Shown: one piece after another, positions 17,580 through 49,676 of the stretch
How the letters are laid out: each line of letters starts with the position of its first letter
Position numbering within the stretch: position 1 is the first letter of the stretch
DNA from: a virus
Virus record (IMG/VR): IMGVR_UViG_3300042937_000479
Span: 1-49,745 of that record
DNA length: 49,745 bases
Direction: 5' to 3' (one strand)
Program-made: the position numbers and the translations under genes
Notes under the pieces: model-generated
Seen by the model: only the letters and a program-made list of their open reading frames with translations
Told to the model about the DNA's origin: nothing
Databases searched by the model: none

Positions 17580-20500
17580 ATGCAAAAAATTAATTCTTTT
17601 GTAACACAGACAAGCACAACAGACAATCTTGGACCTATTATAAAGGATCCGAGCAATGTTTTCAATCAAGTATTGGGTCAATTACCAACCGAACCAGAAA
17701 CAACAACTACAGACGGACTTCCCGGTACAGATATTGTCTATCCACCGAGCACAGATATAGTAGTTCCTGAGCTTCCTACAAATGCATCCTCTCTTAATTA
17801 TGAAGTATGGGCAGCAACATGGAATAGACAAGTTCACGAAGATGCGATTTCTGTTGTACCTTTTGTGTATGTGGATAATATGGGAGAATGGACACCTACT
17901 CCAGGCGATGATTATTTTGTAAATACTACTCAATATAATAATTTCAAAACAGCACTAGAAGCAATACCAGAAGGAAGACGAGTTGTGCAGCCAACATTCT
18001 GGAGTGCTGCTCCTGCAAATTGGACATGGTCTTCGTTAGATATGATTGATTATTATATTGATCGTGATGGCACAGAAATAGGTGGTAGAAAATTAATCTG
18101 GACACCTTGGCAAGAAAATGTAACTGCAGATGCCAAAACAAGTATAATACAATTTTTAACTAGATGCAGTAATGATGGATTAGTAATTGATCATATTTCA
18201 GACAACACATTTTACGGAGATGGGGGTCAGCCAGGAATATGGAATCTTTCGATGCCCCCTCGATACACAACTCATAACATATATGTGTCAGATTCTATTG
18301 GAAATGATGCATGGACTGGAGAAACTTCTGTAGTTTCCGGAACAATAGGCCCTGTGAAAACTATTGCTAAAGCAGCTCTTTTAGCAAAAACTTATACAGC
18401 AGCTGGCGGTGATTCGAATATAGAGATTCGAATTGCTGGTGGTACTTACAGAATGCTTGGAACTGATGCAAATCCTATTCTATACATGAATAGTACATAT
18501 AGCGCAAAGGACGGTAGAACTTTAACATTCAAACCAAAATCTGCATCTGATGAAGTTATAATAACTGGATCGGAAGCAATTCCCCACACAGCATTTACAT
18601 TGGTAAATTCTAGTGATCCTAAGTGGAGTCGTATATCTGCTGCTGCAAAAGGAAATGTATATGTTGCTGATATTGATTCTTTTGATATTGGACCAGGATA
18701 TCCTTCTATGTGGAAAGGTGATGGAGTTGGTTCGCAGGTCGGATATACATCAGATCTACCAGCACTTCCTGATTTGATTTTTAATAATGAAACAATGGTT
18801 GTTGCTAGATGGCCTAATAAAAATAATACAAATAGTAGTGGATTTTCTTTGGCGGAATGTGCTACTATTAAAACTGTAGTTGATACTGGCACAGCTGGCG
18901 TTTGGAGTGTAGATAGAACTTATCTTACTGGAATTGGTGATACTACCCCAGATCCATGTGGAGAATATACTCCAGCTGGCGCAAGAACAACTGATGCAAA
19001 TAATGATGGTATTGCTGATTGTTTTAGAAATGGTGTGTTTACATATTCCTCGGAGTATGATTCTGTTATTTCTACTTGGACATCTGCGGCTATTAATGAT
19101 GGAATTTGGTTGTATGGTTCTTGGAGATGGGACTGGGCACAAGAAAATTATAAAGTAGTATCTCTCGATACTGTCAATAGAAGAATCACAGTCAATTCCA
19201 GAAAATCTAATTATGGAATACAAAATTATACATTATGTGATGCAACAACTGGAATTCTTAATTGTCCAACTAATCCAACTTGTGGTTCGTATTTATCAAA
19301 CCCAACTCCAAGAAGATGGTATGCACTGAATATATTAGAAGAATTAGATTCTCCCGGTGAATATTTTATCGATAGAGATAATGAGAAATTATACTTCTGG
19401 CCAAAATCTGCACTGAATAGTAATTCTAGCATAAGATTGACACACAGAGCTGTAGCCGGTGCTGGTGTTAAATCCAACGATACAACTGAGAATGGATTTG
19501 CTCCTAATGGAACCATTAGTAGAATAGACTTCCCATATCCCGGTTGGGAAGATTCTCCGTTTGGATGGTCAGGAACCGGAAGAGCAATGCAATCCAGACA
19601 TATATGGAATGTTAAAGGAGGATTGCGATCATTATTCAAATTGTATGGTGCTAAAAATATAAGATTCGAAGGACTAACTTTCAGAGATAGTGCTGGATCT
19701 GGTATAGAAATTCAATTATGTGAAAACATTACAGTATTGAAATGCAAAATCTATAATATAAAGAAACATGCAATAAATGCACCCGGTGGTAAAAATGTAA
19801 CGATTGATAGTTGTGATATACATGATATTGGACTGATGGCAATTATTAATACAGGTGGTAATAAACAAACACTAGAGCCAGCTAATAAACTAGTAACTAG
19901 ATGCTCTATTAAAAGATTTGGTAGATTAGTAGATACTTCTGCAGCAATAAGAATAGAGGGAGTTGGCAATACAGTTTCTTACAATTTAATATCAGATGGT
20001 CCTAGTGGTGTTCACGCTTCTCTTGGTAATGATATAATAATAGAATATAATCATTTTCATAAGTTGTGCAAAAATAATGATGATGCTGGTGCGGTATACG
20101 CCGGAAGAAATGCATCTTCGTTTAATATTGTAGTACGAAATAATTTCTTTAATGATATTGGACCTGATCAAGATGGTGGATTTATATATGGTAGTTTTAA
20201 TGGTGGATGTGCTGGTGGAAGCCCTCCAAATACAAGATCAGTAACCGATAACGATAAACGCGTACAGGGTGTTATAGGTGTATATTTTGATGATTTGTTA
20301 TCTGGAAATACGATAAGTCAAAATGTATTTTATAAATGTGGTAGAGGTGACTGGGGTGGCGGAATTGGTTTCAATGGTGGTATTAACCACAAAATAGAAA
20401 ATAATATTTTTGTGGAATGTCCAAGTGGATATGGAGATATTATAAATGCTAAAAAAGTGTGGAACGCATCATTATCCGGACAGGCATTTTATGTAATTAA

Positions 20501-23500
20501 TACAGAGGCTTATCCTTGGTATGAGTCTGGCGGACCATTAGATCGCGATGGAATAACAACTATACCAGTCACAGGATACAGTCCTTGGACTATGCCTTTT
20601 GGTCCTACTGCATATCCAAGTGAAGACTTCAGAGGAGTGATGGCTGTGTCTGATATTCGCGCAGATGAATACAAAAATCGCGCACCTTGGTTACATGAAA
20701 TATACAATTTTTCTAATTCTAATCCAGGAACTCCCGGAACAATTACAGTAAATGTAGACAAAGCAGTATTATATAAAACACAAGCAACAAATAATGTTTT
20801 TGTTAATTGTACTAAAATCTCTCATTCTGGTGTTGTTGGAAGTGATCCTCTAGATCCTTCCGTAATTGGTGGATTTATTGTTAATGGTCAGTTCGAATCT
20901 ACAGATATGACACACTTTGTAAATGTGCCAGCATTTGATTTTAGATTAACCGAAGAAGGTCTGAGACAAATAAAACTAGGGATTCCAGGATTTTCCAATA
21001 TACCTTTCCAATCAATTCCTACTATAAATTATGTTCCAGAATCTTACACACAACAAACTTGGCAAACATGTGCAGTAGGCAACGGTCATTACAGCTGCGA
21101 AAGAGAGTTTTCAGATCCGGATGCATTAGAAGCAATCGTTACAGATCCTAGATTTAATACAACAATTAATACTGTAAATGGAAAAACATTCTATACAGAT
21201 TTTATGGACAGATATAATCTGTGCAAAACAGAAATAGACACAAGACAGAGAAGTTTATTTTCTATATATTCGAATGATTGGTATGTTGCTACTGCCACTA
21301 CAGCCGCACAAGCATTATCACCAATGTATGGATATCTTGGAGATACTCAAAATCCACAAAATAACATGCAAGTTTTTCCTTGGGGAAATTCAAATGCTCA
21401 GGCAGCAACTCGTGCTTGGACTGATACTGTTGTAGATTGGGGTGATGCGTTCTATAGACCAACTATGTGGACACAAGCTCTATCTTCTACTGGATATAAT
21501 AATGTTTCCTTGACACAGGATTATAGCTATCCATTAAATAATGAAGAATTTAAATATTTTGACAATGGATATGGTTGGAAAGGATCACCAAAAATTGCAA
21601 AATCTGATACTAATGTATCTCCTCCATTCTATGGAGAACTTACACCAAATGCATTGGGAACATTTAGCTATATTATAAATCCAACTACAGACGATGAGAG
21701 ATATTTGTTTTCTAGTATAGATCCAAATTCTACACCACCAGCTACAACATTACGATACAGTAGTCCGACTTGGTTGGCTTTCTTATTAGACATGAGACTA
21801 ATGAAAGCAATTCACCGTAGTGATGATACTGCATGGCAAAGATTTGCGCCATGGATTGTGAGTACAGATGTAGGTGGAGAAGTTGATCGTTATCGATATG
21901 GTCCGCTAACAGGTGATGTTGGAAAACAGTATTGGAAAGAAATAATATTACATAGCTGTTTGCATGGTGCTAAATTTATTAATTATTTTAATGGAGTTTC
22001 TCCAGAAAATCCACAAAGCACTTTGGATATGCACAATGTTCTTGAAGAATGGAGAACTACCAGTGGCAATTCTCGTGCTCAACCAACTGCTGTAAACAGA
22101 ATAGCAGTAAATTCTAGTGTTATTATTTCTGGTGGTAGACTTCTAAGTACAAATCAATATTTGTGGAGAATCACAGCCAAACCATCGGCTTCTGTGACAC
22201 TCAGAGCATTCGGATCATCTACATCAAGAACAGATATTCCTCAAACTATAACTCTCGACAGCGCATCTAGAGGTGCGTGGTTAACCACAACTACTTCAGT
22301 TCCGCCAGTCTATATTCTAGATGAAAATACACAACAAGAAACTACTCAATTTACTTATGTTACCTTGATGAGAACACAATTAGAGGGTGGGTTAGTAGCA
22401 AGAGCACATGCCATATATGGTGGATCTACTCACGATTTCGGTTCTGGTGTTGGGTTTGATGCAAATGGTAAATCTGTTGGTGGTTTACAATACATGACTG
22501 ATGCCGGTATAGAAAGTTCTGGACATCATTCTGGAAATGTTAATTGGTATTATAAAAATAATTATAGATTAAATGAGGATGGTAATCTTATACCAGTAAC
22601 AATAGAATATGCACCGGGTTTCGCGCAAGTATTGTGCGACGGAGATCGTTGCTATTCTGGTCAAGGTTGCTACCAAGCACCACCTCTTCATGCTGCAGAA
22701 TGGATAGAACAAATGTCCAAATCTGGAGAATGGGGAGCTCCTTTGCGTCCAGAACAACCATTCCCAAATAGCACTTCATATTATGCATCTGCAAATCAAA
22801 GAAATACATGGTTTCCTTATGTTACTTTAGAGGATGGAGTAACTGTAAGAATTCATCAACCATTTGATAATACCAAGGGAAGAGACACTCCTATGGAGTT
22901 TATGGTTTCTGGTAACTTGGATACGACTACTAATATGTACAGTAGTTTCTGGCAAAGAAGCAGATCTCAAGGAGGACGCAGCGACCTTGCATATGACTAT
23001 AGAATAAATGTAGATACTTCTGATTATAGTTCAGTTTCTACTGGATGGTCAAATGTAGTATTCTATACACTTGCAGATGGTACATTAAAATGGCAAACAG
23101 CTTCGTCTACTTATGCTGGATATCCAATATTACCACCGAACAATCTCGCAGTTCTAAAATACAAACAAATAGCTGTTGGATATGGTAGTGTTATTGGGCT
23201 TAAAACAGATGGTACAGTTGTTGGGTGGGGTGGAGTTGATGGAGAAGTTGAAAGAAGTACTGCATTTTTCCAACAACAAGTAACTTTCAAGGGAAGAACT
23301 ATCAAAAAAGTTGCGGCGGGTGCAGGACATTACATAGCACTTCTTGACGATGGACAAGCAGTAACTTGGGGTAGTAATGAATCTGCTCAATGCAGCGATC
23401 CAGATACTGTATGGACACCAATTGGTCTTATTCCTATTCCAACTGCAACAAATAAAGAATACATTACAAATCACATACCATATCAAGATTTCTTTTATGA

Positions 23501-26351
23501 TCAAAAGAAATCATCAATGATGTATACTTTTGATGGCAGTAATGATAGTCAGCCACTATTCAATAGTTGTGTGCCTGCACCTGAAAATAGACATTATAGA
23601 ATATTTAGAAATAATTTATTAGGCTGTCCGTTTCATTCAAATAATGAATATACTCCAGCAAATCCACAGGGTGCATATGATACTCCGTATGTAATAACCG
23701 GAGAAACATATCCAATACAACAAGGCGGAAATTTTGCTTGGAGTGGTAAAATAAATTGGGCAAATCAAACGGGAGCACCAAACGATTATCAATTTAGCAG
23801 AGATACAACACAAGAAAACACAGGAGTGAATTCTTCTGTTGGTAGTTTGGGGTGGATGCGAGCCGAAGAGAATATTCCAATGGTACAAGCATCTGGAGGA
23901 ACTGAAATTGGTTATCAAAATTCTGCAGCTAACGGCGGAACACTAGTATACAATTCTGTTTTTGGTACATCAGCAAAGAAATATGTTGATATTGCAGCTG
24001 GAAGAGCCCATAGTCTATTATTAACGGAAACTGGTAACATAGAAACATGGGGTCAAAATTGGTATTACACAATCACCGGAAGTGGTGAAGCTCCTGAAGA
24101 TCCAGATACTGGAGAAAATCTGGGATGGGGTCGTGTTGGTCAACCAAGTGGAAATGGAAAACCACCAGCCATACCACATGGTTATGGTACATATCGTAAT
24201 GTTAGATTCTTTAAAAGAAATAACAATTCTGTAAAGGCAATTGCAACAGGATATTATACTAGTCAAATTATTAGACAGTCGGACGGTTCTATTTTTGCAT
24301 GGGATAGAAATGAATGGGGAGAATCGCGTCCATATCTAAATTCGGAAGGAAATGAGGGATTGCCAAATGGACCATTTAAACAAGTAAATGGTGGATATCA
24401 TCATACATGTGCCCTCAGAGAAAACGGAACAGTTGTATGTTGGGGAGAAAATACCGAGGGAGAATGTAATGTTCCAACAGATCTTGGCCAATGTCTCTGG
24501 ATAGATGCGGGTGCAAGATTTACACTAGCACTAAAACGCAACGGAGAATTGTGGGCATGGGGAAAGGTTTCAGTACTTAAAGCTGGAGCAACAGATGGTA
24601 TTGCTATTAAATTAGTAAATGATACCATAATAATACCAAACCCTTCAATCGGATTGCTTCCCGGACACGAATATCCAATGATCGTTTCTGGTGCAAAAGA
24701 AATTCGTACAGCCAGTGATGGTTTACCAACAAAATACGAACCGGGTAATATGTGGAAATATGGTGGATTTATATTTGCTCCTATACGCGCAGATGATGGA
24801 TGTGCAGATGCACTTTTCATGTCCACATACACAAAGGTGCTTCAGTCTTCAAAAGCTAGCGAAGAATATGCATATTTTTCAATGCATTTAGATCCGGATA
24901 AAATACCACCTTGCATAACTCAAGGAGACGCCTGGAAAACTTGGTCAGAGGATGATTTTGTTAATGGTGAGTATAGACCAAAGCGTGTGTTTGTGAATTA
25001 TGAAGATCAATTAGTAGATCAAATTCGTGGATTAGATATGACTGCTAGATTTGGACCAGGTCAATATGGTGGTATGGGTGGTGTGCTGGTGAATGCTAAG
25101 ATATGGCAGAAAGTAGTTTCATATGTAAAACTCACCAGAAAAATGAATAACAAAATTCGTGAAGTATGGGGATCTCAAGCAAACATAAATCATTATGATA
25201 TGATGAGTTTCCCTTATTATCAAAATTGGAAATCGGAATGGTATCCTACTGCTGGACCTCTGATGTGGGGTGAATTAGATTTGTTAGAAAATACTGCAGA
25301 TAATCAATCGAGAGTTTCTACTTGTCCATATTGTGGTGAATTGGATATAGATTATCCTGGCGATGCTGTGTTTAATCAATTATCTTTTGAAGAAAAAAGA
25401 GAATTCAACATAAAGGCATTGAAAGCAGTACAAAACAAGGTATTCGCCTTGGCTGCAGCAATAGCAAAAATGTGCTTATTTGAACCGGCTGAAGGTGAAC
25501 CAGATGTTTTAGATTTAAGACCAGAAATGACTGTTCTTATGCCTCAAATAGATCCAAGTAATTTCATTATAACTGGATTGAATCATTATGCAAATTCTGT
25601 ACACGGAGATCTTGTAAATAATGCACATAAATACTATGCAGCAACATCAGACGGGTTTACTGTTGGTGGTGAAACCTTAATGAATAATTCTGAAACAAAT
25701 AAAAGCAGACAGATGAGTGTACATCATAAAGAACAAGCAAGAGTGGGGTTATTCAATAATCAATCATCTGGTAAATTATATTCATTCATGGTTCAAGGAG
25801 TGTGTGGATCTCAAGTATCACCACATTCTTACGAATTCTATAATTCAAGTGATCCTGCTAATGCTGGATATAAAAAATCATTTAATTATCCATGTAACCC
25901 AGAATTATCTACATGTCTTCGTCCTACATTCAATGGTATAGAAGTTAGTTCGTTTCCAATATCAGCATCTGTTGCAAATCATCAGGCAGGGGATCGCAAA
26001 TATGTTGTTCCTACTTTTCCAGAAAACACCAACAGAAAGAGTTTTTTAAGACATTCCGTGTGGGTAAATCTATGGAATGATTTCCTTGTTAGAAGCCAAT
26101 TAGGTTCTGCTTTAAAGAATAAAGATGAAATTATTTGGTCTGACAATAATTTACAAAGTGTAGTTAGTTCATATTTCCCAATGGAAGTTTCTGCACCACC
26201 GGGATATAACGATCAATTGAGACCTTGTGCCCAGGGAGAAACCCCACATGCCGGTTGCAGAGACATAGTTGCAAATCCGTACATTCTACCAACTCCAATG
26301 AATGACAGTTCGCGTATAAGGAACAATTCATTTTCAACATTTAACTGTTAG
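17580..26351 (+). CDS. Giant multidomain tail protein with beta-helix and RCC1-like repeats
   Basis: A 2923-aa protein, the largest in the window. Segments: 1-75 Thr/Pro-rich linker; about 75-230 a possible TIM-barrel-like part (YEVWAATWNRQVHED); about 233-1145 a right-handed parallel beta-helix, starting HNIYVSDSIGNDAWTG and GPVKTIAKAALLA, with ladder repeats such as NVTIDSCDIHDIG and IIIEYNHFHKLC, ending DFRLTEEGLRQIKLG, as in pectate-lyase-like tailspikes; about 1190-1560 another enzyme-like region (LHSCLHGAKFINYFNG); about 1860-2335 at least six RCC1-like propeller repeats (IAVGYGSVIGLKTDGTVVGWG and similar); 2335-2923 a C-terminal region with a CxxC (Cys2582, Cys2585). It probably forms a tailspike or fibre that binds or digests surface sugars. 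It lies inside the baseplate operon between gp7 and gp8, with no SD. Confidence 0.7.
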   Translation: MQKINSFVTQTSTTDNLGPIIKDPSNVFNQVLGQLPTEPETTTTDGLPGTDIVYPPSTDIVVPELPTNASSLNYEVWAATWNRQVHEDAISVVPFVYVDNMGEWTPTPGDDYFVNTTQYNNFKTALEAIPEGRRVVQPTFWSAAPANWTWSSLDMIDYYIDRDGTEIGGRKLIWTPWQENVTADAKTSIIQFLTRCSNDGLVIDHISDNTFYGDGGQPGIWNLSMPPRYTTHNIYVSDSIGNDAWTGETSVVSGTIGPVKTIAKAALLAKTYTAAGGDSNIEIRIAGGTYRMLGTDANPILYMNSTYSAKDGRTLTFKPKSASDEVIITGSEAIPHTAFTLVNSSDPKWSRISAAAKGNVYVADIDSFDIGPGYPSMWKGDGVGSQVGYTSDLPALPDLIFNNETMVVARWPNKNNTNSSGFSLAECATIKTVVDTGTAGVWSVDRTYLTGIGDTTPDPCGEYTPAGARTTDANNDGIADCFRNGVFTYSSEYDSVISTWTSAAINDGIWLYGSWRWDWAQENYKVVSLDTVNRRITVNSRKSNYGIQNYTLCDATTGILNCPTNPTCGSYLSNPTPRRWYALNILEELDSPGEYFIDRDNEKLYFWPKSALNSNSSIRLTHRAVAGAGVKSNDTTENGFAPNGTISRIDFPYPGWEDSPFGWSGTGRAMQSRHIWNVKGGLRSLFKLYGAKNIRFEGLTFRDSAGSGIEIQLCENITVLKCKIYNIKKHAINAPGGKNVTIDSCDIHDIGLMAIINTGGNKQTLEPANKLVTRCSIKRFGRLVDTSAAIRIEGVGNTVSYNLISDGPSGVHASLGNDIIIEYNHFHKLCKNNDDAGAVYAGRNASSFNIVVRNNFFNDIGPDQDGGFIYGSFNGGCAGGSPPNTRSVTDNDKRVQGVIGVYFDDLLSGNTISQNVFYKCGRGDWGGGIGFNGGINHKIENNIFVECPSGYGDIINAKKVWNASLSGQAFYVINTEAYPWYESGGPLDRDGITTIPVTGYSPWTMPFGPTAYPSEDFRGVMAVSDIRADEYKNRAPWLHEIYNFSNSNPGTPGTITVNVDKAVLYKTQATNNVFVNCTKISHSGVVGSDPLDPSVIGGFIVNGQFESTDMTHFVNVPAFDFRLTEEGLRQIKLGIPGFSNIPFQSIPTINYVPESYTQQTWQTCAVGNGHYSCEREFSDPDALEAIVTDPRFNTTINTVNGKTFYTDFMDRYNLCKTEIDTRQRSLFSIYSNDWYVATATTAAQALSPMYGYLGDTQNPQNNMQVFPWGNSNAQAATRAWTDTVVDWGDAFYRPTMWTQALSSTGYNNVSLTQDYSYPLNNEEFKYFDNGYGWKGSPKIAKSDTNVSPPFYGELTPNALGTFSYIINPTTDDERYLFSSIDPNSTPPATTLRYSSPTWLAFLLDMRLMKAIHRSDDTAWQRFAPWIVSTDVGGEVDRYRYGPLTGDVGKQYWKEIILHSCLHGAKFINYFNGVSPENPQSTLDMHNVLEEWRTTSGNSRAQPTAVNRIAVNSSVIISGGRLLSTNQYLWRITAKPSASVTLRAFGSSTSRTDIPQTITLDSASRGAWLTTTTSVPPVYILDENTQQETTQFTYVTLMRTQLEGGLVARAHAIYGGSTHDFGSGVGFDANGKSVGGLQYMTDAGIESSGHHSGNVNWYYKNNYRLNEDGNLIPVTIEYAPGFAQVLCDGDRCYSGQGCYQAPPLHAAEWIEQMSKSGEWGAPLRPEQPFPNSTSYYASANQRNTWFPYVTLEDGVTVRIHQPFDNTKGRDTPMEFMVSGNLDTTTNMYSSFWQRSRSQGGRSDLAYDYRINVDTSDYSSVSTGWSNVVFYTLADGTLKWQTASSTYAGYPILPPNNLAVLKYKQIAVGYGSVIGLKTDGTVVGWGGVDGEVERSTAFFQQQVTFKGRTIKKVAAGAGHYIALLDDGQAVTWGSNESAQCSDPDTVWTPIGLIPIPTATNKEYITNHIPYQDFFYDQKKSSMMYTFDGSNDSQPLFNSCVPAPENRHYRIFRNNLLGCPFHSNNEYTPANPQGAYDTPYVITGETYPIQQGGNFAWSGKINWANQTGAPNDYQFSRDTTQENTGVNSSVGSLGWMRAEENIPMVQASGGTEIGYQNSAANGGTLVYNSVFGTSAKKYVDIAAGRAHSLLLTETGNIETWGQNWYYTITGSGEAPEDPDTGENLGWGRVGQPSGNGKPPAIPHGYGTYRNVRFFKRNNNSVKAIATGYYTSQIIRQSDGSIFAWDRNEWGESRPYLNSEGNEGLPNGPFKQVNGGYHHTCALRENGTVVCWGENTEGECNVPTDLGQCLWIDAGARFTLALKRNGELWAWGKVSVLKAGATDGIAIKLVNDTIIIPNPSIGLLPGHEYPMIVSGAKEIRTASDGLPTKYEPGNMWKYGGFIFAPIRADDGCADALFMSTYTKVLQSSKASEEYAYFSMHLDPDKIPPCITQGDAWKTWSEDDFVNGEYRPKRVFVNYEDQLVDQIRGLDMTARFGPGQYGGMGGVLVNAKIWQKVVSYVKLTRKMNNKIREVWGSQANINHYDMMSFPYYQNWKSEWYPTAGPLMWGELDLLENTADNQSRVSTCPYCGELDIDYPGDAVFNQLSFEEKREFNIKALKAVQNKVFALAAAIAKMCLFEPAEGEPDVLDLRPEMTVLMPQIDPSNFIITGLNHYANSVHGDLVNNAHKYYAATSDGFTVGGETLMNNSETNKSRQMSVHHKEQARVGLFNNQSSGKLYSFMVQGVCGSQVSPHSYEFYNSSDPANAGYKKSFNYPCNPELSTCLRPTFNGIEVSSFPISASVANHQAGDRKYVVPTFPENTNRKSFLRHSVWVNLWNDFLVRSQLGSALKNKDEIIWSDNNLQSVVSSYFPMEVSAPPGYNDQLRPCAQGETPHAGCRDIVANPYILPTPMNDSSRIRNNSFSTFNC

Positions 26352-47053: not shown

Positions 47054-47401
47054 ATGAAGGTTAAATTGATTGAAGTTTATAGTTCTGTCGCAACTCTAAA
47101 CAAACTAATAGAAGAGCCTCTGCCAGCCAGAGTGTCTTTTAAACTCATGAAGCTACTGAATCAACTAAATGCAGAAGTTAAGTTGGTTGAAGATCAAAGA
47201 CTTAAATTGGTGAAACAATATTCTGAAGATGGTTCTACTGTCTCAGACACCAATAAAGACTCATTTATCCAAGAATTTACTGAATTCTTAAATGATGAGA
47301 TTGATCTTGCCTGGGAACCAATAGAAATAGATGCATTAGGTGAAAATATCAAACTATCTGTCACAGATTTGTCTAAAATGCAATATTTGTTCTCAGAATA
47401 A
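47054..47401 (+). CDS. Small conserved phage protein, DUF1617-like
   Basis: A 115-aa acidic, helical protein: LPARVSFKLMKLLNQLNAEVKLVEDQRLKLVKQYSED (key LPARVSFKLMKLLNQL, about 23-38), then FIQEFTEFLNDEIDLAWEPIEIDAL and a C-terminal LSVTDLSKMQYLF. This layout (LPA-K helix, long charged coil, 'E..ELLNEEV' and 'LSxxDLxxLEyL') recalls small proteins of unknown function found among phage tail and morphogenesis genes and grouped as DUF1617-like. It has a strong SD (AAGGAGA, 47042-47048). It is followed by the hairpin/late-promoter element that precedes gp13. Probably a morphogenesis accessory; no function can be stated. Confidence 0.6.
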   Translation: MKVKLIEVYSSVATLNKLIEEPLPARVSFKLMKLLNQLNAEVKLVEDQRLKLVKQYSEDGSTVSDTNKDSFIQEFTEFLNDEIDLAWEPIEIDALGENIKLSVTDLSKMQYLFSE

Positions 47402-47426
47402 CTTAAAACAATAATACAAATAAAGG

Positions 47427-47470
47427 ATCTCCTTGATTTTATAAATAATGTAGAATCAAGGAGATTTTTA
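47427..47470 (+). promoter_or_regulatory. RBS-sequestering hairpin (and possible terminator) before gp13
   Basis: ATCTCCTTGATT (47427-47438) pairs perfectly with AATCAAGGAGAT (47454-47465), a 12-bp stem with a 15-base loop; two G-U and two A-U pairs can extend it. The 3' arm contains the gp13 Shine-Dalgarno AAGGAG, 9 bases before ATG 47472. A TTTTT run follows the stem, so it may also terminate transcription arriving from upstream. Transcripts crossing the whole element should not express gp13 well. Confidence 0.85.
47440..47447 (+). promoter_or_regulatory. T4-type late promoter TATAAATA in the hairpin loop
   Basis: A perfect TATAAATA lies inside the 15-base loop. T4 late transcripts start about six to seven bases after this element, here near 47453, just at the beginning of the 3' arm. 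Such transcripts lack the 5' arm, leaving the gp13 SD free. The element fits the gp33-like protein encoded at 1691-1912. Confidence 0.75.
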
Positions 47471-47471
47471 A

Positions 47472-48290
47472 ATGGCAAGACCTAATTCACGGGAAAAACT
47501 CAAAGACTACTGCCTGCGAAGGTTAGGCTATCCTGTTGTTCAAATAAATGTCGATGATGCTCAATTAGAGGATCGTATGGACGATGCACTCCAATTCTTT
47601 GCAGAATATCATTTTGATGGCGTAGAGAGAGTTTATTTCAAGAAACAAGTAACACAAGAAGATATGGACAGAGGGTACATTGATTTAACACAACCTACTG
47701 TAGAAAATACGGCAGATTATATTGTTGCTGCTCCTGCAATCGATCCAGATGGACAATCTATAATTAGTGTAATTAGATGCTTTCAATTGTTCGATACTCT
47801 TGGTGGTCTTGGTATGTTTGATGCAAAATATCAAATGGCATTGAACGACATGTATGGGTTAAGAACAAACACATACGGAGATTCTCTCATAAGCTACAAC
47901 ATCACTCGTAGTCATATGCAGATGCTTCAGGATATGTTAACTCCCGAAAAGATGATCGATTTCAGTAGAGTTACAAATAGAATATATGTTGAAACAAATT
48001 GGAAAGAGAAAATGACCAAAAGTCAATATCTCGTGTTCGAAGCATATAGAATTCTTGATCCAGGATTATATCCAGAGATCTACAATGATCGTCTGTTGAA
48101 AATGTATTATACCGCTTTGATCAAAGAACAATGGGGAATGAATCTTTCCAAGTTTACCGGAATGAGTTTACCTGGCGGAGTTTCGTTCAATGGTGCGAAT
48201 ATGGCATCAGAAGCAAAAGCAGAAGTAGATAAGATAGAAGAAGAGATCCAAAGCAAGTACGAACTACCACCACAAGGATTCATAGGTTAA
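47472..48290 (+). CDS. 13: Neck protein gp13
   Basis: gp13 and gp14 close the filled head and make the surface to which the tail binds. The 272-aa protein begins RPNSREKLKDYCLRRLGYPV and VNVDDAQLEDRMDDALQFFAEYHFDG in slightly different letters (here INVDDAQLEDRMDDALQ, about 26-42), the signature of gp13 in T4-like phages. It continues with YIDLTQPTVENTADYIV, MFDAKYQMALNDMYGLR and the C-terminal block FEAYRILDPGLYPEIYNDRL, LIKEQWGMNLSKFTGMSLPGG. T4 gp13 is 309 aa. Its SD (AAGGAG) lies in the 3' arm of a hairpin with a late promoter in the loop, so expression is probably confined to late infection. gp14 starts one base after its stop. Confidence 0.92.
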   Translation: MARPNSREKLKDYCLRRLGYPVVQINVDDAQLEDRMDDALQFFAEYHFDGVERVYFKKQVTQEDMDRGYIDLTQPTVENTADYIVAAPAIDPDGQSIISVIRCFQLFDTLGGLGMFDAKYQMALNDMYGLRTNTYGDSLISYNITRSHMQMLQDMLTPEKMIDFSRVTNRIYVETNWKEKMTKSQYLVFEAYRILDPGLYPEIYNDRLLKMYYTALIKEQWGMNLSKFTGMSLPGGVSFNGANMASEAKAEVDKIEEEIQSKYELPPQGFIG

Positions 48291-48291
48291 T

Positions 48292-49008
48292 ATGGCATTA
48301 AATCCGTATTTCAATAATCACGATTATAAACCAACGCAAGATCTCATGGAAGATCTTGTTGAGGAATCTATCAAGATAAATGGAATAAATGTATATTACA
48401 TTCCAAGACGATTTGTTGATTTGGATCAGATCTTTGGTGAAGATTCTTCTTCATTTTTCAAAGATGCAATTCAAATAGAAATGTATATGGATAATTACTC
48501 TGGGTTTGCAGGTGAAAGAGAAATCATCTCCAAATTTGGATTGGAAATAAGAGACACCCTAAGTTTAGTTGTTTCCAAAAGAAGATTTCAAAAAGAATCT
48601 GCTAAATTTCCTGTGATGTCTGATAGACCAGTTCAGATATCAAATCCAATGGAAGGCGATCTAATTTGGTATCCTTTCACCAAAGCTCTGTTTGAAATCA
48701 AATTCGTAGACACCAAAGAAGTATTTTTCCAATTTGGCAAACTGTACACATATAAATTAGAATGCGAACTGTTCAAATATTCACACGAATCTTTGGATAC
48801 TGGTATATCGGATATAGACGCAATTGAAGACGATATTAGCAAGAGTGTAGTGGAGAATCTCGATTACAATCAAGATGGTGTTGTAGATGATGTTATCACA
48901 TCCGATCAAGATTCTAGAGAAAGAAGCGATAATACTAGAATAGAGACAACTACTCGTGATCTTATAGATTTTAGAGAAATTGATCCATTCTCGGAGAACA
49001 AATATTAA
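48292..49008 (+). CDS. 14: Neck protein gp14
   Basis: Partner of gp13 in the neck hexamer. The 238-aa protein (T4: 256 aa) opens ALNPYFNNHDYKPTQDLMEDL and EESIKINGINVYYIPRRFVDLD (key GINVYYIPRRFVDLDQIFGED, about 31-51; first 15 residues shown are diagnostic), then FKDAIQIEMYMDNYSGFAGE and ISKFGLEIRDTLSLVVSKRRF, all typical of gp14. PMEGDLIWYPFTKALFEIKF and the C-terminal acidic DNA-like Asp-rich linker (DYNQDGVVDDVITSDQDS), which resembles a calcium-binding loop, complete it. It follows gp13 by one base and its TAA shares a base with the ATG of gp15 (TAATG), so gp13-14-15 form a coupled set. Confidence 0.92.
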   Translation: MALNPYFNNHDYKPTQDLMEDLVEESIKINGINVYYIPRRFVDLDQIFGEDSSSFFKDAIQIEMYMDNYSGFAGEREIISKFGLEIRDTLSLVVSKRRFQKESAKFPVMSDRPVQISNPMEGDLIWYPFTKALFEIKFVDTKEVFFQFGKLYTYKLECELFKYSHESLDTGISDIDAIEDDISKSVVENLDYNQDGVVDDVITSDQDSRERSDNTRIETTTRDLIDFREIDPFSENKY

Positions 49009-49676
49009 TGTTTACTACTTTCTATCATGGTATGACAAAGAAATTGACAGCCGGCTTTGGCACGCTGTTCAATAACATGTATATCGAACGCGGTGAAAAT
49101 ACCACATACAAGAAAATTAAAGTTCCATTATCATATGCACCAAAAGAAAAAATGATGGAAAGAATTGGTCTTGAATTGGACAATCCTTCTGCTGCAGCAG
49201 TGCAACTGACTTTACCAAGAATGTCGTTCATGTTGACTGGTCTGGAATATGACACAGAAAGAAAACGCAACAGTTCTGGAAAACGGATGTCGGAGAAAAC
49301 CCTACAGAATAGTGATATCATAATCAACTATCACTATAACGAAGTGCCATATAAATTGAACTTTTCGTTGTTTGTATATGCCAGAACAATGGATGATGGA
49401 TTGAAGATAATAGAACAAATCTTCCCATTCTTTACACCGGATTTTACTTTAACAATTAAACCGGGTATTCTTGCAGATTATTATGAAAAGGTAGATGTTC
49501 CTGTCACTCTTATAGAAACAACAACAGATCAGCAGTTCGATGGTTCTTTCAAGGACGAAGCATCTAGAATGATAATTTGGGAATTGAAATTTGTGGTTAG
49601 AACATATTACTACGGTCCAGTAAATCAAGCCGGACTAATCAAAACGATGGATATCAACCTGTTCAATCTGGATTAA
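49008..49676 (+). CDS. 15: Proximal tail sheath stabiliser gp15
   Basis: gp15 forms the hexameric ring that caps the finished tail and connects it to the neck. The 222-aa protein begins FTTFYHGMTKKLTAGFGTLFNN and YIERGENTTYKKIKVPLSYAPKEK (key KIKVPLSYAPKEKMMERIG, about 42-60), comparable to T4 gp15 FIRVPITYASKEHFM, followed by LTLPRMSFMLTGLEYD, YNEVPYKLNFSLFVYARTMDD and IIEQIFPFFTPDFTLTI, then WELKFVVRTYYYGPV near the end. T4 gp15 is 272 aa; the difference is a C-terminal Pro-rich tail absent here. The start shares a base with the gp14 stop. In T4 the genes 13, 14, 15, 16, 17, 18 follow in this order. Confidence 0.92.
   Translation: MFTTFYHGMTKKLTAGFGTLFNNMYIERGENTTYKKIKVPLSYAPKEKMMERIGLELDNPSAAAVQLTLPRMSFMLTGLEYDTERKRNSSGKRMSEKTLQNSDIIINYHYNEVPYKLNFSLFVYARTMDDGLKIIEQIFPFFTPDFTLTIKPGILADYYEKVDVPVTLIETTTDQQFDGSFKDEASRMIIWELKFVVRTYYYGPVNQAGLIKTMDINLFNLD

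Follow-up and report, generated by a model that had tools for sequence, protein, structure and literature searches.

Why does the Shine–Dalgarno (SD) sequence of a phage neck gene lie in the arm of a hairpin that carries a predicted late promoter in its loop? The question is raised by gp13 in the 49,745-base IMG/VR record IMGVR_UViG_3300042937_000479 (the window, i.e. the whole stretch analysed here), which comes from an uncultured T4-like phage and is probably a fragment of a larger genome; a DNA search found no near relatives among named phages. We consider it likely that the hairpin hides the ribosome-binding site (RBS) of gp13 and that, through a gp55-type late promoter located in its loop, the translation of gp13 is tied to the start point of the transcript, the likely purpose being insulation. 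This reading is based on the stem, on its covariation, on its specificity for gp13 and on the gp55 homologues of related phages.

The hairpin, the promoter octamer and the gp13 start

Gene content was assigned by PHROGs. On the plus strand, gp13 (47472..48290; 272 amino acids; neck protein, head–tail adaptor Ad2; phrog_211, E 4e-38) is followed by gp14 (48292..49008; neck, head closure Hc2; phrog_460, E 4e-72) and gp15 (49008..49676; tail sheath stabilizer; phrog_227, E 1e-62). The gap upstream of gp13 (47401–47472), which holds the hairpin and the promoter, begins at the end of a co-directional ORF of 115 amino acids taken from the ORF list (47054..47401, plus strand; phrog_1401, unknown function, E 6e-7), and the region of this ORF is where any read-through RNA would come from. 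In the gap, ATCTCCTTGATT (47427–47438) pairs without mismatch to AATCAAGGAGAT (47454–47465), forming a 12-bp stem with a loop of 15 nt (47439–47453) that contains the late-promoter octamer TATAAATA at 47440–47447. The SD, AAGGAG, is in the 3' arm (47458–47463), 8 nt ahead of the ATG at 47472, and the anti-SD, CTCCTT, is in the 5' arm (47429–47434). The coordinates of the stem, and the presence of the octamer in its loop, are as given by the first-pass annotation. This is the only perfect stem of at least 11 bp with a loop of 3–20 nt in the window, and ten first-order Markov random windows together yielded one stem of at least 12 bp. In the RNA fold, A–U and G·U pairs lengthen the stem to 21 pairs (5' arm 47423..47443, 3' arm 47449..47469, plus strand), with the octamer partly paired near the top of the hairpin; the energy of this fold is −24.8 kcal/mol (z −6.5, equalled by no shuffle), as predicted at 37 °C, which may not be the host's temperature. 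An Rfam scan of the element gave only sub-threshold chance matches, with no family near its gathering score. CTCCTT was also considered as the SD of a divergent gene in the window and rejected on inspection, since the mirrored SD is not followed by a plausible start on the minus strand.

In T4 the late octamer spans positions −13 to −6 (PMC1524935), which places the predicted late start at 47453 on the plus strand. The predicted unpaired probability of the SD is 0.00 in a read-through RNA, where it is held in a stable stem as in T4-type RBS-hiding hairpins, and is about 0.99 at five of the six SD bases in an RNA that begins at 47453; its mean over the SD is at least 84% for every start from 47450 to 47457. 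An RNA initiated upstream would therefore have its SD folded into the stem and would translate gp13 poorly, and one begun at about 47453 would lack the 5' arm and have its SD free. Both the spacing of the octamer and the folding agree with the late start first proposed near this position. The window contains three copies of TATAAATA against 7.3 expected by chance, and only the gp13 copy shortly precedes a gene start with an SD. No homologue of gp55, the late sigma factor, is encoded in the window, which is a fragment; all four long relatives encode one, so that T4-like late transcription is to be expected.

Covariation of the stem and its specificity for gp13

Three IMG/VR scans with gp13, together with named phages, provided 153 non-redundant leaders. 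Among leaders whose gp13 shares at least about 62% identity with the window's, nearly every one that bears the promoter has a matched stem with an anti-SD ahead of ATAAATA and an SD behind it, and the sequences of these stems differ: TCTCCCCCTTAT/ATAAAGGGGAGA with one mismatch in L021, TCTCCTCAATT/AATTGAGGAGA in L029 and TCCTTTGCAT/ATGCAAAGGA in L035. In L374, a more distant relative, TTTCCTCCAATT precedes the promoter and AAATGGAGGAAA follows it. An alignment of 35 non-redundant gp13 leaders, anchored at the SD, shows pairing between the arms of the same leader at 86% of scored positions, compared with a mean of 61% and a maximum of 68% in 2000 permutations of the arm partners; the leaders are phylogenetically related, and counts of leaders are counts of non-independent events. 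Inner positions of the stem show many pair types (for one pair, AT 10, TA 13, GC 3, GT 3 and TG 2). Departures from Watson–Crick pairing inside the stems are G·U in 25 cases and A·C in 7, as expected for RNA, the true number of events being smaller because close relatives share some of them. For this figure as for the 86%, the pairing axis was picked to maximise pairing, and is largely fixed by the SD. The stem is thus kept in relatives by compensatory change, the outcome on which the first-pass annotation had staked its proposal, and the element persists while the sequence of its stem and its distance to the upstream gene turn over.

A shuffle test in which the promoter, the SD and the start were held fixed, only the preceding 40 nt being shuffled, detected pairing in 39 of 85 ATAAATA leaders at P ≤ 0.05 and in 23 of 85 at P ≤ 0.01; these counts are lower bounds, since the test is blind to leaders with the promoter within the 5' arm (the L049 group) or with a 3' arm that starts before the predicted transcription start (L035, L039). 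Roughly half of the leaders with ATAAATA, most of them distant, have no significant pairing in this test. The Mosig leader is borderline (P = 0.022) and the HTVC008M leader shows no significant pairing (P = 0.92). Where the sequence upstream of a hairpin-bearing leader is long enough, it shows a co-directional ORF that stops 34–70 nt before gp13, whereas in HTVC008M, which has no SD hairpin, the upstream gene is in the opposite orientation; this contrast, a single comparison, is in line with insulation from read-through.

Several leaders deserve separate mention. In the gp13 leader of L334 the SD is covered by a long perfect stem, the loop of which has TATACATA instead of TATAAATA; ATACATA also precedes gp13 in other marine leaders and is perhaps a variant late motif. 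A hairpin identical to that of the window lies close to the end of a contig of 4.2 kb (L199:222–280), before a gp13 that is only distantly related; either the element was exchanged or the contig is a chimera. In seven leaders (L043, L322, L329, L323, L346, L379, L387) only 12–13 nt separate ATAAATA from the gp13 ATG and no clear SD is present, so that the predicted late mRNA would be almost leaderless; in the first three of them a short stem includes the start codon, whose pairing partner lies upstream of the promoter or overlaps its beginning.

Specificity was surveyed in the window, in four long relatives and in the gp13 loci of the clade. Pairing is significant (P ≤ 0.05) in 12 of 18 gp13 leaders versus 2 of 23 other late-promoter leaders, and in the same genomes capsid genes of the gp22 and gp23 types, among others, have leaders with ATAAATA but no such stem. 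At the level of sequence, the hairpin therefore appears nearly private to gp13 in the surveyed clade genomes. The two other significantly paired leaders are at 49400(−) and 25788(−) in relative G005; their genes are a 478-amino-acid ORF downstream of gp20, and regA. A like design, CTCCTTTACGGTATAAATACTGTAAAGGAG, precedes another gene at L105:4463–4492, L109:423–452 and L137:8791–8820, the protein starting with MQNTLSYFMGRDGF or MADMLSYFIGRDGF and being possibly a baseplate hub protein. In L084, L120, L161, L177 and L182, divergent gene pairs share a single TATTTATAAATA, which can be read on either strand as a late promoter and is flanked by the SD of each gene. Degenerate CTCCTT..ATAAATA..AAGGAG matches found at many other IMG/VR genes were not used as evidence of generality, because they mix real stems with chance matches and with divergent pairs in which CTCCTT is the SD of the other gene.

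Gene order and the role of the element

The genes around gp13 suggest which RNAs the hairpin would silence, all statements on the timing of transcription resting here on gene content. A gp32-type ssDNA-binding protein (1989–2909) is followed by minus-strand genes up to 7390 (baseplate hub, tail tube, DNA end protector, head closure and others). After 7390 the plus strand carries baseplate genes (among them tube cap, wedge, hub/lysozyme, gp25 and gp6) and, up to the phrog_1401 ORF, very large ORFs that mostly have no PHROGs assignment and are probably fibre genes. One ORF amid the baseplate genes (17580–26351) is 2,923 amino acids long and has weak matches only, to tail and RCC1-like families. 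The roughly 40 kb of plus strand upstream of gp13 are thus occupied by genes for the baseplate and probably for fibres, which are presumably also late. The gp32 ORF is followed at 2937–2963 by a strong hairpin that resembles a terminator and has a TTCG loop and a T-run, and those replication genes that were located in relatives (gp45, gp44, gp62 and regA) are downstream of gp13. These three features lead us to favour insulation: the output of the neck genes would track their own promoter and not read-through from the fibre and baseplate genes. Insulation is more likely than a delay until late infection, although it is deduced from gene order on a fragment and early transcripts may cross the region.

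The delay was the purpose put forward in the first-pass annotation, a lock by which the hairpin would keep early and middle transcripts from yielding gp13, so that head closure waits until late infection. T4 e and I-TevI are known to be controlled in this way (PMC3014915, PMC2988022), gp32 lies upstream of gp13 on the same strand, and the mechanism is identical whichever RNA reads through. We nevertheless regard it as unlikely here: the baseplate and probable fibre genes, about 40 kb in all, separate gp32 from gp13, and a delay through early read-through is not indicated, given the terminator-like hairpin after gp32 and the position of the replication genes in relatives.

The element could also be an intrinsic terminator of the upstream unit, with a stem that overlaps the gp13 SD by chance. 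A run of T (TTTTT, 47465..47469, plus strand) follows the perfect stem in the window, and T4, RB69 and RB49 carry terminator-like hairpins at the same boundary. A T-run of at least four after the SD is found in 11 of 12 leaders with an upstream gap of at least 57 nt, the subtype to which the window belongs, versus 3 of 23 leaders with a shorter gap (Fisher P = 9e-6, kinship ignored), hence in 14 of 35 overall. However, the run is not a general feature of relatives: the other 20 short-gap leaders retain the SD-pairing stem with the promoter in its loop, and a terminator has no need to track the SD or to enclose a promoter. We therefore find it quite improbable that termination is all there is to the element. 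The restriction of the U-run mainly to one subtype indicates that termination is at most an added function and not the shared one, an added role that is possible in the window. Of the two fates first proposed for a read-through RNA, a locked SD is consistent with its predicted pairing, whereas termination at TTTTT would concern mainly one subtype of leader.

In a third explanation, translational coupling, ribosomes ending the upstream ORF would open the stem, and gp13 would be translated only along with that ORF. The upstream stop is indeed just a few nucleotides before the 5' arm in many relatives. In the window, however, it is separated from the full stem by 21 nt and from the perfect core by 25 nt, distances that are outside the reach of a terminating ribosome. 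Moreover, the distance from the upstream stop to the gp13 start codon ranges from 34 to 70 nt among leaders and coupling leaves the promoter in the loop unexplained, which makes it very unlikely. Finally, a DNA-level operator, in which the inverted repeat is the binding site of a protein controlling late initiation, would account for a repeat symmetric about the promoter and has a precedent in I-TevI, whose binding to an operator at its late promoter brings about its own repression (PMC2988022), but is scarcely credible for stems whose letters vary freely with pairing retained, whose G·U departures outnumber A·C (25 versus 7) and whose arms follow the SD. RNase III processing was set aside, as the stems of many relatives have just 7–9 Watson–Crick pairs.

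Returning to insulation, we propose tentatively, as a possibility that we rate somewhat below even, that an insulator of about 50 bp is maintained throughout the lineage between two late units, where it would hide the neck SD, perhaps terminate transcription in some phages, and restart transcription internally, making neck and fibre outputs independent. The element is found in one T4-like phage and in dozens of uncultured relatives, and its covariation extends the argument beyond one sequence, pointing to selection for start-site-dependent translation at an essential virion gene of uncultured T4-like phages. The gp13 leaders offer natural compensatory variants for studying the ratio of neck to fibre proteins.

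Comparison with known late-relieved hairpins

The working principle, SD hiding that depends on the transcription start, is already known. We found no description of an RBS-hiding hairpin at gp13 or another neck gene in the open-access literature searched, as the first-pass annotation had supposed; subscription papers may hold one. Relative to that literature, the new features are the neck gene as target, the persistence across uncultured phage lineages and the position between presumably late genes. At the wac–13 boundary, between fibre and neck genes, T4, RB69 and RB49 also have a hairpin directly before gp13. Unlike that of the window, the hairpin of T4 and RB69 precedes and excludes the SD and has no ATAAATA nearby; that of RB49 is U-tailed and terminator-like.

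The closest parallels are the leaders of T4 e, soc and 49, in which RBS hiding is relieved by late promoters (PMC3014915). The comparison with gene e made at the outset fits, and extends to soc, 49 and I-TevI (PMC3014915, PMC2988022): as in e, soc and 49, the SD is in a stem on the longer RNA, a late promoter lies just upstream of the RBS, and the late RNA would lack the 5' part of the structure. The RNAs silenced in T4 are early or middle ones (PMC3014915, PMC2988022), and the known cases share a location on long early or middle transcripts (PMC2988022), a location against which gene order argues for gp13. Unlike T4 e, a lysis gene silenced on early RNA, gp13 is a neck gene preceded by structural genes. 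The element also resembles the leaders of I-TevI, I-TevII, I-TevIII, segB and Aeh1 mobE, which have a stable hairpin over the RBS and a late promoter sited so that the late RNA cannot form it (PMC2988022). These homing endonuclease genes lie within host-gene units that are early or middle, whereas gp13 encodes an essential structural protein and has retained its element in many lineages. This comparison suggests that the late-hairpin device of T4 lysozyme and the homing endonucleases, used there in early and middle units, can also separate late genes.
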